The notes beneath the pieces were generated by a model. The model did no database searches. It had not been told where the DNA came from and saw only the letters and a program-made list of their open reading frames with translations. This document shows positions 508 to 9,203 of a stretch of 64,000 nt of DNA, piece after piece. This DNA is from Cellulomonas gilvus ATCC 13127 (lineage in GTDB: Bacteria; Actinomycetota; Actinomycetes; Actinomycetales; Cellulomonadaceae), in contig NC_015671.1 in NCBI RefSeq assembly GCF_000218545.1, forward strand, positions 2,604,001 to 2,668,000, read 5' to 3'. The position numbers and the translations under genes were made by a program. The first letter of the stretch is position 1; each line of letters starts with the position of its first letter.

Positions 508-2169
508 TCAGCGCGGCTCGACCCCGTGCTTGCGCAGGCCCCAGATGGTCGCGTCGGTCAGCGCCTCCCACGACGCCTCGAGCAGGTTGGGGCCCACGCC
601 CACGGTGCTCCAGGACGCCTGCCCGTCGGTCATCTCGATGAGCACGCGCGTGACCGCATCGGTGCCGTGCATCGAGTCGAGGATCCGGACCTTGAAGTCG
701 ATGAGCTCGAACGGCTCGAGCTCGGGGTAGGCACCTACCAGCGCGAGCCGCAGCGCATGGTCGAGCGCGTTGACCGGTCCGTTGCCCTCGCCGGTGGAGA
801 CCATGCGCTCGCCGCCCGCGTGCAGCTTCACGGTCGCCTCCGCGGTCGCCGGGGTCCCCCGTCCGCCCACGCGCTCGACGATCGTGCGCCACGACTCGAC
901 GCGGAAGTAGTGCGGGCGCCGACCCTCGACCTCCTCGACCAGCAGCAGCTCGAACGACGCGTCGGCGGCCTCGTACGTGTAGCCACGCGCCTCGGCGTCC
1001 TTGACGCGCTCGGTCACGCGACCCAGCACCTCGGGGCGCCCCGACAGGTCGAAGCCGAGCTCGCGGCCCTTGAGCTCGATCGACGCGCGTCCGGCCATGT
1101 CGGAGACGAGCATGCGCATGTCGTTGCCGATGAGCGCAGGGTCGATGTGCTGGTACAGGTCCGGGTCCACCCGGATCGCGGACGCGTGCAGACCGGCCTT
1201 GTGCGCGAACGCGCTGGCCCCCACGTACGGCGAACGCGCGAACGGCGAGATGTTGGTGATCTCGCTGATCGCGTGCGCGATGCGCGTCAGCTCGGGCAGG
1301 CCGCCCGGGCGCTCGTCGTCGTGCGCCAGCACCGGCAGCCCGTACTTGAGCTCGAGGTTCGCCACCACGGCGAGCAGGTCGGCGTTGCCCGTCCGCTCGC
1401 CGTAGCCGTTGACCGTGCCCTGCACGTGCGAGCACCCGGCCTCGACCGCGGCGAGCGTGTTCGCCACCGCGCAGCCCGAGTCGTTGTGCGCGTGCATGCC
1501 GAGCACGGCGTCGGGGCCGACGGCCGCGCGCACGTCCTGCACGATCGCCGCGACCCACGCCGGGATCATGCCGCCGTTGGTGTCGCACAGCGCGACCACC
1601 TCGGCACCCGCCTCGAACGCCGCGAGCACCGCCGCGCGCGCGTATGCGGCGTCGAACCGGAACCCGTCGAAGAAGTGCTCCGCATCCACGACCACGCGCC
1701 GCCCCTCGCGGACCAGGAGCGCGACCGTGTCGGTGATCATCGCCAGGTTCTCCTGGCCCGTCGTCCGCAGCGCGCGCTCGGCGTGCCGCAGGTCGCTCTT
1801 GGCCACGAGCGCGACGACCGGGGCCTCGGAGTCGAGCAGCGCCCGCACCTGCGGGTCGTCGTGCGCGCGCGTGCCGGGCTTGCGCGTCGCGCCGAACGCG
1901 GCGAGCTCGGCGTTGCGCAGGTCGAGCTCCTTGGCCGCGCGCTTGAAGAACTCGGTGTCCTTGGGGACCGCGCCCGGCCAGCCGCCCTCGATGAAGCCCA
2001 CGCCCAGCTCGTCCAGCAGCGGCGCGATCGCGAGCTTGTCCGCGACGGACAGCGCGATGCCCTCCTGCTGGGCGCCGTCCCGCAGCGTCGTGTCGTACAC
2101 CTGGAACGCACGCCCGGTCAGGTGCGGCAGGGCGGTGCTGGCGGTCGGGCCGGAGGTCACTGCGCTCAC
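508..2169 (-). CDS. cimA: citramalate synthase (CimA/LeuA-like)
   Basis: A 553-residue DRE-TIM metallolyase of the citramalate/2-isopropylmalate synthase family. It condenses acetyl-CoA with pyruvate, or a related 2-oxoacid, and opens the threonine-independent route to 2-oxobutyrate and isoleucine. The N-terminal catalytic barrel has YDTTLRDGAQQEG (about residues 25-37) and the metal-binding HAHNDSG. The C-terminal LeuA-type dimer/regulatory domain begins near residue 415 and contains GEGNGPVNALDHALRLAL. Length fits the CimA group of actinobacteria. The gene lies downstream of leuB and ilvE on the same strand. It is separated from ilvE by a strong terminator and has its own leader region with an Ile-Ile peptide and attenuator hairpin, which supports a role in isoleucine supply. 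Substrate choice cannot be proven from sequence. Confidence 0.88.
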   Translation of the reverse strand: MSAVTSGPTASTALPHLTGRAFQVYDTTLRDGAQQEGIALSVADKLAIAPLLDELGVGFIEGGWPGAVPKDTEFFKRAAKELDLRNAELAAFGATRKPGTRAHDDPQVRALLDSEAPVVALVAKSDLRHAERALRTTGQENLAMITDTVALLVREGRRVVVDAEHFFDGFRFDAAYARAAVLAAFEAGAEVVALCDTNGGMIPAWVAAIVQDVRAAVGPDAVLGMHAHNDSGCAVANTLAAVEAGCSHVQGTVNGYGERTGNADLLAVVANLELKYGLPVLAHDDERPGGLPELTRIAHAISEITNISPFARSPYVGASAFAHKAGLHASAIRVDPDLYQHIDPALIGNDMRMLVSDMAGRASIELKGRELGFDLSGRPEVLGRVTERVKDAEARGYTYEAADASFELLLVEEVEGRRPHYFRVESWRTIVERVGGRGTPATAEATVKLHAGGERMVSTGEGNGPVNALDHALRLALVGAYPELEPFELIDFKVRILDSMHGTDAVTRVLIEMTDGQASWSTVGVGPNLLEASWEALTDATIWGLRKHGVEPR

Positions 2170-2265
2170 GTTGCTGCTCTCTTCGGACGAGTCACACGGG
2201 GGACGGACGGAGAACCGCTCGCCGGTGCGGGGGTGTCCTCGTGAGACGGACCCGCACCAACAAAA

Positions 2266-2290
2266 AGACCCCCCGGGGTACGGGAGGTCT
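2266..2290 (-). terminator. attenuator-type intrinsic terminator upstream of cimA
   Basis: Read on the minus strand, a 9-bp stem (AGACCTCCC paired with GGGGGGTCT, one G-U pair, 7-base loop) is followed directly by TTTTT (complement of 2262-2266). It sits about 95 bases before the cimA start and just after the leader-peptide hairpin. It therefore looks like a conditional terminator rather than the end of a gene. Confidence 0.8.
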
Positions 2291-2317
2291 GCGCGCCGAC
2301 GGGGTGGGTCGGCGCGC
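2291..2317 (-). promoter_or_regulatory. leader hairpin 1 of the cimA attenuator
   Basis: A perfect 10-bp stem (GCGCGCCGAC with GTCGGCGCGC) and a 7-base loop begin at the last stop-codon base of the leader peptide. They end one base before the terminator hairpin. In ribosome-mediated attenuation this is the position of the structure that a stalled ribosome would disturb. The exact antiterminator pairing is not certain by eye. Confidence 0.6.
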
Positions 2318-2355
2318 TAGTCGATAATCGCGGTCCACGGGGACATGCGGGCCAT
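2317..2355 (-). CDS. cimA leader peptide with Ile-Ile codons
   Basis: A 12-codon frame, MARMSPWTAIID followed by TAG, lies 148 bases upstream of cimA. It has two adjacent isoleucine codons, ATT ATC, three codons before its stop. ATT is rare in this GC-rich genome, so a ribosome would plausibly be slow here when charged tRNA-Ile is short. The stop abuts hairpin 1, and the terminator follows. No strong Shine-Dalgarno sequence or -10 hexamer is obvious. The peptide is inferred from arrangement and codon content, as in ilvB leaders. It probably has no function other than sensing isoleucyl-tRNA. Confidence 0.62.
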   Translation of the reverse strand: MARMSPWTAIID

Positions 2356-2429
2356 GGTGGCACACGTCACCCCGGCAGGTCACGCCGCTCCCCCGCGGGT
2401 TCCATCCCTTGGACCCGGCGACAGACGCA

Positions 2430-2482: not shown

Positions 2483-3592
2483 TCAGAGAAGGCGGTGCAG
2501 CCAGCCGTGCCGGTCGGTCGCGCGCCCGTACTGGATGTCGGTGAGCTCGGCGCGGGTCCTCGTCGTGACCGGACCGGCGGCACCGTCGGCGACCGTGAGG
2601 TCGAAGTCGTCCGACGCGAGCCGGCCGATCGGCGTGATGACCGCGGCAGTGCCGCACGCGAACACCTCGGTGATCGAGGCGTCCGCCAGCCCCGCACGCA
2701 GCTCGGCGAGCGTGACCTGGCGCTGCGAGACCTCGTGGCCCGCGTCCGTGAGGAGCTGCAGGATCGACGAGCGCGTCACGCCCTCGAGGATCGAGCCCGA
2801 GACCGGGGGCGTCACCACCGAGCCGTCGGCGTGCACGACGAAGATGTTCATCCCGCCGAGCTCCTCGAGGTACGTGTTCGTCGATGCGTCGAGGAAGCAC
2901 ACCTGCTCGAAGCCCTTGTCGTACGCCCGCTGCTGCGGCAGCAGGCTCGCGGCGTAGTTGCCGCCGCACTTGGCCGCCCCCGTGCCGCCCGCACCCGCGC
3001 GGTGGAACTCCTGGTCCACCCAGATGGCGACGGGGCGCACCCCGCCGGAGAAGTACGGCCCCACGGGTGAGGCGATCACCAGGTACTCGGCCTCGAGCGA
3101 GGGACGCACGCCCAGGAACGACTCGGACGCGTACATGAACGGCCGCAGGTACAGGCTCGTCTCCTCGCCCGTGGGCACCCACGCAGCGTCGGCGCGCACG
3201 AGCGCCTCGATCGATGCGAGGAAGTCCTCCTCGGGCAGCTCGGGCAGCGCGAGGCGGTGCGCGGACCGCGCGAACCGTGCCGCGTTGGCCTGGGGCCGGA
3301 ACGTCCACACCGAGCCGTCGGCGTGCCGGTAGGCCTTGAGGCCCTCGAAGATCTCCTGGCCGTAGTGGAGCACCGACGTCGCGGGCGCCAGCTGCAGCGG
3401 GCCGTACGGCTCCACACGCCTGCTGTGCCAGCCGCGCTCCTGCGAGAAGGAGATCCGGGACATGTGGTCCGTGAAGACCGTGCCGAACCGCGGCGCCGCG
3501 AGGTGCTGCGCGCGCTCGTCGTCCGGGACGGGGGTCGTCGACGCGTGCACCTCGAAGAGGTCGGCCGATGGGGAGGAAGCGACGGTGCTCAT
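2483..3592 (-). CDS. ilvE: branched-chain amino acid aminotransferase
   Basis: A 369-residue class IV PLP aminotransferase that makes Ile, Leu and Val from their 2-oxoacids in the cytosol. The Schiff-base lysine is in GAAKCGGNYAAS. The downstream RSSILQLLTDAG and TEVFACGTAAVITPIG stretches are standard for actinobacterial IlvE. The start chosen is MSTVASSPSADLFEVH; an upstream extension of the frame is low-complexity and overlaps leuB. It follows leuB on the same strand after a 203-base gap and is followed by a strong terminator. Length matches the family. Confidence 0.93.
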   Translation of the reverse strand: MSTVASSPSADLFEVHASTTPVPDDERAQHLAAPRFGTVFTDHMSRISFSQERGWHSRRVEPYGPLQLAPATSVLHYGQEIFEGLKAYRHADGSVWTFRPQANAARFARSAHRLALPELPEEDFLASIEALVRADAAWVPTGEETSLYLRPFMYASESFLGVRPSLEAEYLVIASPVGPYFSGGVRPVAIWVDQEFHRAGAGGTGAAKCGGNYAASLLPQQRAYDKGFEQVCFLDASTNTYLEELGGMNIFVVHADGSVVTPPVSGSILEGVTRSSILQLLTDAGHEVSQRQVTLAELRAGLADASITEVFACGTAAVITPIGRLASDDFDLTVADGAAGPVTTRTRAELTDIQYGRATDRHGWLHRLL

Positions 3593-5506: not shown

Positions 5507-6595
<1,089 letters not shown>

Positions 6596-7123: not shown

Positions 7124-9016
7124 TCAGTCCTCCCGGTCCCAGGCCGGCGAGATGCCCCGCGCGTACTGGATGTCGTCGTTGCTCACGCCCGCGGCGACCA
7201 TCGGCCACACCATCGCGTCACGCGAGACGGTGAAGTCGACGACGACGGGCTGGTCGTCGATCTCGAGCGCGCGCTTGATCGTCGCGTCGACGTCCGCCTT
7301 CGTCTCGCAGCGCAGGCCGACGCAGCCGTACGCGTCGGCGAGCTTGACGAAGTCGGGGATGCGCGCGGTGCCGTGGCCCGTGTGCAGGTCCGTGTTGGAG
7401 TAGCGCGACTCGTAGAACAGCGTCTGCCACTGCCGCACCATGCCGAGCGAGGAGTTGTTGACCACCGCGACCTTGATGGGGATCTCGTTGATCGCGCAGG
7501 TCGCGAGCTCCTGGTTGGTCATCTGGAAGCAGCCGTCGCCGTCGATCGCCCACACCGTGCGGTCGGGCTCGCCCACCTTGGCGCCCATCGCCGCGGGCAC
7601 CGCGTAGCCCATGGTGCCCAGGCCGCCGGAGTTGAGCCACGAGTTCGGGCGCTCGTACCTGATGAACTGCGCGGCCCACATCTGGTGCTGGCCCACGCCC
7701 GCCACGTACGTCGCGTCGGGGCCCGTGATCTCGCCGATGCGCTGGATCACGTGCTGCGGGGCCAGGTGCCCGTCCGTCGGCTCGTCGTAGCCCAGCGGGA
7801 ACGTCTCGCGCCACGCGTCGAGCTGCCGCCACCACGCCTCGAGGTCCGGCTTGCCGTGCTGACCGTGCTCGCGCTCGAGCTCGGGCAGCAGGTCACCCAG
7901 GACCTCGCGCAGGTCGCCCACGATGGGCACGTCCACGGCACGGTTCTTGCCGATCTCGGCCGGGTCGATGTCCGCGTGCACGATCGTGGCGTGCGGCGCG
8001 AACGACGCGAGCCGCCCCGTCACACGGTCGTCGAACCGCGCGCCGAGCGCGACGATCAGGTCGGCCTTCTGCAGCGCGGCCACGGCTGCCACGGTCCCGT
8101 GCATTCCGGGCATGCCCAGGTGCTGCGGGTGCGTGTCGGGCAGCGCGCCGCGGGCCATGAGCGTGGTCACGGCCGGCGCACCGGACGCGTCGACCAGCGC
8201 GCGCAGCTGACGCGCCGCACGTGCGCGGATGACGCCGCCGCCGACGTACAGCACGGGTCGCCGCGCCGTGGCGAGCAGCCGCGCGGCCTCCCGGATCTGC
8301 TTGGCGTGCGGCTTGGTCACCGGGTGGTAGCCGGGCAGCGCGACGTCCTGCGGCCACGTGAACGTGGTCGACGACTGCATGGCCGACTTGGCGATGTCCA
8401 CGAGCACCGGTCCGGGACGGCCCGTCGCGGCGATGTGGAACGCCTCCGCGATCACGCGCGGGATGTCGTCGGGGTCCGTGACCAGGTAGTTGTGCTTGGT
8501 CACCGGGAGCGTGATGCCGACGATGTCGGCCTCCTGGAACGCGTCCGTGCCGATCATCGCCGCGCCGACCTGACCCGTGATCGCCACGAGCGGGACGGAG
8601 TCCATGTTGGCGTCGGCGATCGGGGTGACCAGGTTGGTGGCTCCCGGGCCGGACGTCGCCATGCACACGCCCACGCGGCCGGTCGCGGCCGCGTAGCCGG
8701 TCGCGGCGTGGCCGCCACCCTGCTCGTGCCGGACCAGGATGTGCCGCAGGCGGGTCGAGTCCATGAGCGGGTCGTACGTCGGCAGGATCGCGCCGCCGGG
8801 GATGCCGAAGACCACCTCGGCGCCGGCCTCCTCGAGCGAGCGGACGATCGACTGCGCACCCGTGACGTGCTCGACCGTCGTCGTGACGGCGAGGCCGGAC
8901 GGCGCGCCGCCCGGTGTCGCACCGGACGCGACCGGGGCGGGCGCGGGACGCGCCGCCCCGACCGTGGCCGGGCTCACGGGCGTCCTCGGCGGTGCCGGGT
9001 GGGGGCCCTGGACCAT
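7124..9016 (-). CDS. ilvB: acetolactate synthase large (catalytic) subunit
   Basis: A 630-residue ThDP-dependent acetohydroxyacid synthase. After a Pro/Ala-rich N-terminal extension of about 45 residues comes [18 protein letters not shown] and the cofactor-activating Glu in [16 protein letters not shown]. The C-terminal ThDP/Mg motif begins at [15 protein letters not shown] and runs to the asparagine pair in [14 protein letters not shown]. It makes the first intermediates of the Val/Leu and Ile branches. The ATG at 9016 has AGGGAGA just upstream. The operon is preceded by a leader peptide and attenuator. Confidence 0.96.
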
Positions 9017-9093
9017 CGGTGTCTCCCTGCTGCTGGTGGGGTGCTGCGGGTGGAGCGCGTGCGCCGGGGCGGACGCCCCGGGAAAACAGAAAA

Positions 9094-9127
9094 CCCCTCG
9101 CGTCGACGGAGCCGACGGGGCGAGGGG
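9094..9127 (-). terminator. attenuator terminator of the ilvBNC operon
   Basis: Minus-strand stem CCCCTCGC paired with GCGAGGGG, followed at once by TTTTCTGTTTT. It lies about 80 bases before ilvB and after the leader peptide. This is a classic intrinsic terminator in an attenuator position. Confidence 0.85.
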
Positions 9128-9128
9128 T

Positions 9129-9176
9129 GAGCGCGCGGACGAGGCCTGTGCGGGCGTGGCCTCAGCCGGCGCGCTC
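9129..9176 (-). promoter_or_regulatory. leader hairpin of the ilvBNC attenuator
   Basis: A two-part stem: outer GAGCGCGC with GCGCGCTC and inner GAGGCC with GGCCTC. It overlaps the last codons of the leader peptide and lies just before the terminator stem. It is the likely pause/anti-antiterminator structure that the translating ribosome opens. Confidence 0.6.
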
Positions 9177-9203
9177 AGGAAGTACTACGAGGATCGTCTG
9201 CAC
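9162..9203 (-). CDS. ilvBNC leader peptide
   Basis: A 13-codon frame starting with [16 protein letters not shown] and then TGA. The run Ile-Leu-Val-Val-Leu contains all three end products of the pathway. A TAACCT -10 hexamer lies 7 bases before the GTG, so the message is probably leaderless and begins with this peptide. Ribosome stalling at the branched-chain codons when charged tRNAs are scarce would favour read-through into ilvB. Leaders of this kind are known for ilvBNC of Corynebacterium and Streptomyces. Confidence 0.8.

Follow-up and report, generated by a model that had tools for sequence, protein, structure and literature searches.

A candidate isoleucine-responsive transcription attenuator upstream of the citramalate synthase gene cimA in Cellulomonas and other Actinomycetes

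Citramalate synthase catalyses the opening step of a second route to isoleucine, and how its gene, cimA, might be adjusted to isoleucine supply is the question raised by a 64,000-nucleotide stretch of the Cellulomonas gilvus ATCC 13127 genome (hereafter, the window). Between cimA and its upstream neighbour lie a very short open reading frame ending in isoleucine codons and two hairpins, which the initial annotation had read as an isoleucine-specific attenuator. Here, on the evidence of comparative sequence analysis, we propose that this element is very probably a ribosome-mediated transcription attenuator that responds to isoleucine supply. Homologous elements precede other branched-chain amino acid (BCAA) genes, and their predicted sensor codons appear to track the pathway that each gene serves.

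The window carries ilvB, ilvC, leuB, ilvE and cimA in that order on the minus strand, and the element lies between ilvE and cimA at 2346–2262 of this strand (Table 1). The leader, its adjacent Ile codons ATT-ATC and both hairpins were recovered there as annotated. The identity of cimA also holds; its placing in a threonine-independent isoleucine route needs a qualification, as the genome additionally encodes a threonine ammonia-lyase (ilvA; G000:C1:727286-728416, TIGR01127, 419 bits), and the citramalate route is therefore an additional rather than the sole entry to isoleucine.

Table 1 Features of the cimA and ilvB loci in window coordinates (functional assignments of the regulatory features are predictions)
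Feature	Position	Strand	Details
cimA, citramalate synthase	508-2169	-	TIGR00977 596 bits, cut-off 450
Intrinsic terminator, 10-bp stem + TTTTT	2262-2290	-	AGACCTCCCG 2290-2281 with CGGGGGGTCT 2275-2266
Hairpin 1, 10 bp	2291-2317	-	5' arm GCGCGCCGAC 2317-2308 with GTCGGCGCGC 2300-2291
Leader ORF MSPWTAIID-UAG, 9 codons	2317-2346	-	Start in frame with stop in 78/80 relatives
Sensor codons ATT ATC (Ile-Ile)	2323-2328	-	ATT 2328-2326, ATC 2325-2323
Promoter-like sequence	2354-2383	-	-35-like GTGACC 2383-2378; 18-nt spacer; extended -10-like TGC-CACCAT 2362-2354
ilvE, branched-chain aminotransferase, upstream neighbour of cimA	2483-3592	-	NF009897 496 bits, cut-off 307
ilvC	5507-6535	-	
ilvB	7169-8863	-	
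ilvB attenuator	9090-9203	-	Leader 9203-9162; hairpin 1 9176-9129; terminator + T-run 9128-9090

Where the leader begins bears on how it could be translated. Its frame ends ATT ATC GAC TAG, with the TAG at 2319–2317, and contains two in-frame ATG codons (2355–2353 and 2346–2344 on the minus strand), the first of which had been taken as the start of a 12-residue peptide. That ATG overlaps the promoter-like motif and lacks conservation, and we rejected it; the start is most likely the second ATG, at 2346, giving the nine-residue MSPWTAIID. Across 80 relatives, an extended −10-like motif of the pattern TG-N-(C/G)A-N-N-N-(T/C), usually like TGCCACCAT or TGCCACGAT, stands 5–9 nt (mostly 6–7 nt) before an ATG or GTG in every case, and this codon is in frame with the UAG in 78 of them, yielding leaders mostly of 9 codons. 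In the window, the start follows the motif by 7 nt. Because the motif sits so close to the start codon, the arrangement suggests that the cimA leader is translated from a leaderless mRNA. Leaderless mRNAs have been reported for other Streptomyces leaders in a study that also reports an nTGACn −35 box in S. lividans (PMC8079986), a pattern into which the −35-like GTGACC of the window fits.

The codons in front of the stop carry the case for isoleucine. The initial annotation had proposed aligning cimA upstream regions from related genomes, and in that alignment the Ile codons, the stop and both hairpins proved to be conserved, hairpin 1 with compensatory changes. Among 68 distinct cimA leaders, the stop is always UAG, the codon at position −2 encodes Ile in 65 and that at −3 in 53, while Leu occupies position −4 in 45. 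In line with the description of ATT as rare, the window's five ilv/leu genes use it nowhere, against 93 uses of ATC. The further statement that the leader reads isoleucine alone is borne out as to the dominance of Ile codons and falls short as to strictness: relatives often have a Leu codon in front of the Ile pair (LIIE), a few have a single Ile (CLIS, SLIA) and some have Leu or Val beside Ile, for which reason we treat reading of isoleucine alone as a strong tendency, not a rule.

Both hairpins follow without a gap. Hairpin 1, placed by the initial annotation directly after the leader, in fact begins within the stop codon, the first base of its 5′ arm being the G of UAG, and its length of 10 bp stands as given. 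For the terminator, the TTTTT tail, which runs to 2262, was correctly described; the stem is one pair longer than the stated 9 bp, counting one U-G. No linker separates the two hairpins in the window, and the spacing is similarly tight (0–1 nt) in 140 of the 146 elements parsed. The 98-nt fold reaches −48.0 kcal/mol (z = −4.17), a value that none of 200 shuffles equalled, and nothing else within the window's first 20 kb looks like a terminator. Across the genus and its neighbours, six pairs of hairpin 1 show changes on both sides; for the whole structure, 53 cells are changed on both sides, where shuffles give 18.8, and the signal collapses in slid controls. Class-wide, the covariation is 164 compared with 55.1, in an alignment fitted to the model, which leans towards structure. 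The lower five pairs of hairpin 1 (GCGCG/CGCGC) and the terminator with its U-tract are nearly invariant among relatives.

This architecture extends well beyond C. gilvus. Among 86 dereplicated regions from Cellulomonadaceae and neighbours, a script placed the element upstream of cimA in 80; inspection by eye added one that the script had missed (L087, SIIGTRI before the hairpin). Four of the remaining five lie at contig ends too short to read; of the 82 regions in and around the genus that can be read, 81 thus have the element in front of cimA. The single region with no element is that of Sanguibacter suaedae (L093), in which cimA directly follows ilvE—a natural deletion that offers itself for comparison. 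Many Cellulomonas loci (for example, L055, L062 and L067) also carry, between the terminator and cimA, one or two short GGC-ACCACCCCC-GCC hairpins per leader. A covariance model (R1) was applied at thresholds of 1e-3 and 1e-2, which may admit some chance hits among the weak matches and which miss some elements that have diverged. It matched 161 of the 396 genomes in the order and 173 of the 297 in the class, the latter spanning 83 of 115 sampled genera. The 79 R1 matches inspected lie upstream of cimA in 71 cases, of ilvB in 7 and of ilvA in 1. Selecting loci elsewhere in the class by protein alone gave a similar picture, with the element at 28 of 29 cimA loci, a set made up of those whose products resemble the window's protein most closely. 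In Streptomyces-like genomes the element is longer and diverged (cimA leader MLSFAMIIGSRRAGPQ), and several lineages lack it (for example, L310, L311, L313–L319 and L321). To judge from these comparisons, what is predicted to be the same device is found at cimA across most Actinomycetes.

A second copy of the architecture precedes ilvB in the window. It matches model R1 weakly (14.2 bits, E 0.18 in the window), and its leader starts 7 nt after a −10-like hexamer, TAACCT, with hairpin 1 again abutting the terminator. A covariance model built solely from cimA elements detects ilvB elements at 51 of 59 ilvB loci (E up to 1), the weakly matched one of the window included, the best detections having E values down to 3e-8, and the linker is 0–1 nt in 42 of 44 ilvB elements. 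Mycobacterium-like ilvB leaders (LVVI) in the sampled genomes have the same abutting hairpins. The window's ilvB leader reads ILVVL (ATC CTC GTA GTA CTT), covering all three BCAAs, and we take the sensor codons to track the pathway because this homologous leader reads other codons than that of cimA. Within the window's five ilv/leu genes, GTA is used twice and CTT once; the predicted sensors are rare synonymous codons in both leaders, ATT at cimA and GTA and CTT at ilvB.

The contrast recurs wherever the two elements could be paired. In 18 genomes carrying both, the ilvB leaders read ILVVL or LLVVL, and xII or LII stands ahead of the final codon in the cimA leaders; in every pair, Ile codons are more numerous at cimA than at ilvB. 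Summed, Ile codons stand to Leu and Val codons as 39 to 14 in cimA leaders and as 9 to 81 in ilvB leaders (Fisher p 5.9e-15, indicative only since the sequences are related). Together with the conservation of the cimA leaders, this excess in 18/18 pairs supports the attenuator reading put forward initially.

Isolated elements in keeping with this pattern were also observed at other genes. One, in a genome from another class of the phylum (L351; G780:C182, ~1501–1586 of the reversed locus), precedes leuA, encoding 2-isopropylmalate synthase, with a leader ending SQNLLLT in which the sensor positions are Leu only. Another (L324; G604:C781) precedes an ilvA-like threonine ammonia-lyase gene, with a leader reading QLHLMAIT. 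Two more (L323, G632:C37:281200-284200; L331, G559:C6) precede a small ORF of ~105 aa with a weak match to an ACT domain (PF13291, below cut-off); the L323 leader reads MFALVIIM, and the ORF may possibly encode a BCAA-regulated ACT protein.

How might such an element work? RNA polymerase would start at or near the leader start codon, and a ribosome would translate the leader behind it. Given the usual ribosome footprint, a stall at the first Ile codon would bring the ribosome's edge to the foot of hairpin 1, and a ribosome that has reached the stop codon would lie over the hairpin's 5′ arm. Hairpin 1 starts 11 nt downstream of the first Ile codon in the window and 11–12 nt downstream of it in Cellulomonas and elsewhere, a spacing kept even where the stop codon falls inside the hairpin loop (LIIGRRAG, L164). 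From footprint and spacing together, hairpin 1 would be expected to form in starvation and not in plenty. With ample Ile-tRNA, the ribosome would reach the stop codon and cover the 5′ arm, the terminator would close and transcription would end near 2262. With Ile-tRNA scarce, it would stall on ATT/ATC, its front edge roughly level with the hairpin foot; hairpin 1 would form and the polymerase would read through into cimA. The same logic has been proposed for M. tuberculosis ilvB1, where changing LVVI to AAAA abolishes induction (PMC13236596); reporter data for that gene support a read-through that depends on the leader codons and increases as the cognate aminoacyl-tRNA runs short.

The step by which hairpin 1 would prevent termination divides this reading from its strongest rival, which assigns the element the same function through a trp-type antiterminator that has escaped detection, for example hairpin 1 loop with terminator 3′ arm, or a pseudoknot. 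A pairing between loop and terminator arm has been proposed for Corynebacterium ilvB (PMC10272879), and base composition here would suit it, C making up 59% of the hairpin loops and the terminator 3′ arm being rich in G. The complementarity that this composition might promise did not emerge: against shuffled loops, the real loop-to-terminator-arm duplexes show no advantage (mean z +0.19, n = 125). Folding of the hairpin 1 3′ arm with the terminator 5′ arm does no better than −6.2 kcal/mol and reveals no pairing common to the sequences, and consensus folding (RNAalifold) with ribosome footprints or either terminator arm masked finds no conserved alternative partner, upstream of the terminator included; weak or tertiary pairings lie beyond the reach of these tests. 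Around the Ile codons, a small hairpin (CTC...GAG, CACG...CGTG) gave the impression of covariation and was rejected, its register shifting between sequences and its mean z being only −0.64. We accordingly consider a hidden antiterminator unlikely, if still a serious contender.

These searches turned up no pairing able to compete with the terminator, and our account of the element therefore lacks the switch by which a classical attenuator is defined. Our working guess is that hairpin 1 itself would sterically block closure of the terminator in starvation, a guess prompted by the 0–1 nt that separate the two. Extended to all homologous elements, it yields a proposal that we put forward tentatively and with more doubt than conviction: a class-wide attenuator family that works with no alternative base pairing, in which hairpin 1 physically blocks the terminator and codons are swapped per gene. 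Its chassis would be a hairpin 1 abutting the terminator with sensor codons about 8–12 nt upstream of hairpin 1, and would serve ilvB (I/L/V) and cimA (Ile-Ile) as well as, in isolated instances, leuA (LLL), ilvA and an ACT-domain gene. The linker-less hairpin 1 would keep the lower pairs of the terminator from closing in the RNA exit channel, and a ribosome at the stop codon would melt hairpin 1 so that the terminator forms.

Another view dispenses with sensing altogether. The element would be a constitutive partial terminator that ends read-through from ilvE or fixes the level of cimA, its leader a fossil or decoration whose Ile codons sense nothing. The terminator is strong, no conserved antiterminator was found and, as the result is cited in PMC1262725, changing candidate regulatory codons of S. 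coelicolor ilvB had no effect, which weighs against our own reading too. Such a terminator, however, needs neither a leader frame nor a promoter-like motif, Ile codons or a fixed Ile-to-hairpin spacing, all of which are conserved over the class, and it needs no difference between cimA and ilvB leaders, which differ as sensing would lead one to expect; this explanation seems to us quite improbable.

Control might instead act on translation, with the leader governing cimA by reinitiation, coupling or exposure of the start region and the hairpins being secondary. In the window, leader and cimA happen to share one open frame of 602 aa, and it has been proposed that leader genes raise downstream translation by reinitiation (PMC4833913). 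Yet among relatives the distance from leader stop to cimA anchor ranges from 106 to 329 nt in all three phases, whereas the terminator and U-tract hardly vary, making translational control a highly improbable primary mode. For the same lack of a conserved phase, stop-codon read-through or frameshifting into cimA was rejected. Finally, although a structured leader precedes an amino-acid gene here and actinobacterial ileS genes carry T-boxes (PMC1262725), a ligand-binding riboswitch or T-box is scarcely credible, as none of 4227 Rfam families matched at gathering score or convincingly at relaxed E-value, only two simple hairpins are present and conservation follows the coding frame.

Ribosome-mediated attenuation thus being the reading we prefer, the citramalate route in Actinomycetes gains a candidate regulator. 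In agreement with the initial annotation, which knew of no such attenuator, we found no description of a citramalate synthase gene with a leader peptide or attenuation in the open-licence literature; one may exist elsewhere. Signals would be separated, with the shared ilvB step listening to all three BCAAs and cimA mainly to isoleucine, and the two homologous elements 7 kb apart in the window amount to a natural codon-swap experiment. The absence of detectable alternative pairing, combined with the rigid 0–1 nt spacing, makes antitermination in actinobacterial BCAA attenuators directly testable. In practical terms, the cimA element might also serve as an amino-acid sensor part in high-GC hosts.

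Earlier surveys frame these comparisons. Seliverstov et al. 2005 (PMC1262725) described ilvB leaders and no conserved structures for other amino-acid pathways, with no mention of cimA or citramalate, and a list of S. lividans leaders (PMC8079986, Table 4) includes none for cimA. Set against known systems, the cimA element shares with the enterobacterial trp/his-type attenuator the end-product codons in a leader peptide and the terminator before the structural gene, and differs in having no segment found able to pair alternatively with both hairpins; it is predicted to work like a classical trp-type attenuator and can be called one only by likeness. The LEU element and leuA leucine leader (PMC1262725, PMC8079986) likewise combine a BCAA leader peptide with a gene of the same enzyme superfamily, but the former is described as a pseudoknot and the leuA leader as having no typical terminator, whereas the cimA element consists of two plain hairpins and a U-tract. 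The Corynebacterium ilvB-II motif (PMC10272879) has a BCAA-codon-rich uORF, a P1 hairpin and a P2 terminator in common with it; in that motif, most of P1 lies within the uORF and a P1-loop/P2 antiterminator has been proposed, a complementarity that was not found in the cimA element. Nearest of all are the actinobacterial ilvB attenuators (S. lividans ilvL MRTRILVLGKRVG, PMC8079986; M. tuberculosis ilvB1 LVVI, PMC13236596), which have the same short, often leaderless BCAA leader, a hairpin at the leader end and a terminator directly behind. The cimA element differs from them in the gene it would control, in its Ile-Ile sensors in place of I/L/V mixtures, in its often shorter hairpin 1 and, in Cellulomonas, in a stop codon at the hairpin foot. 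We therefore file it, as a prediction, as a new, isoleucine-specific member of the actinobacterial ilvB-type BCAA leader attenuators.
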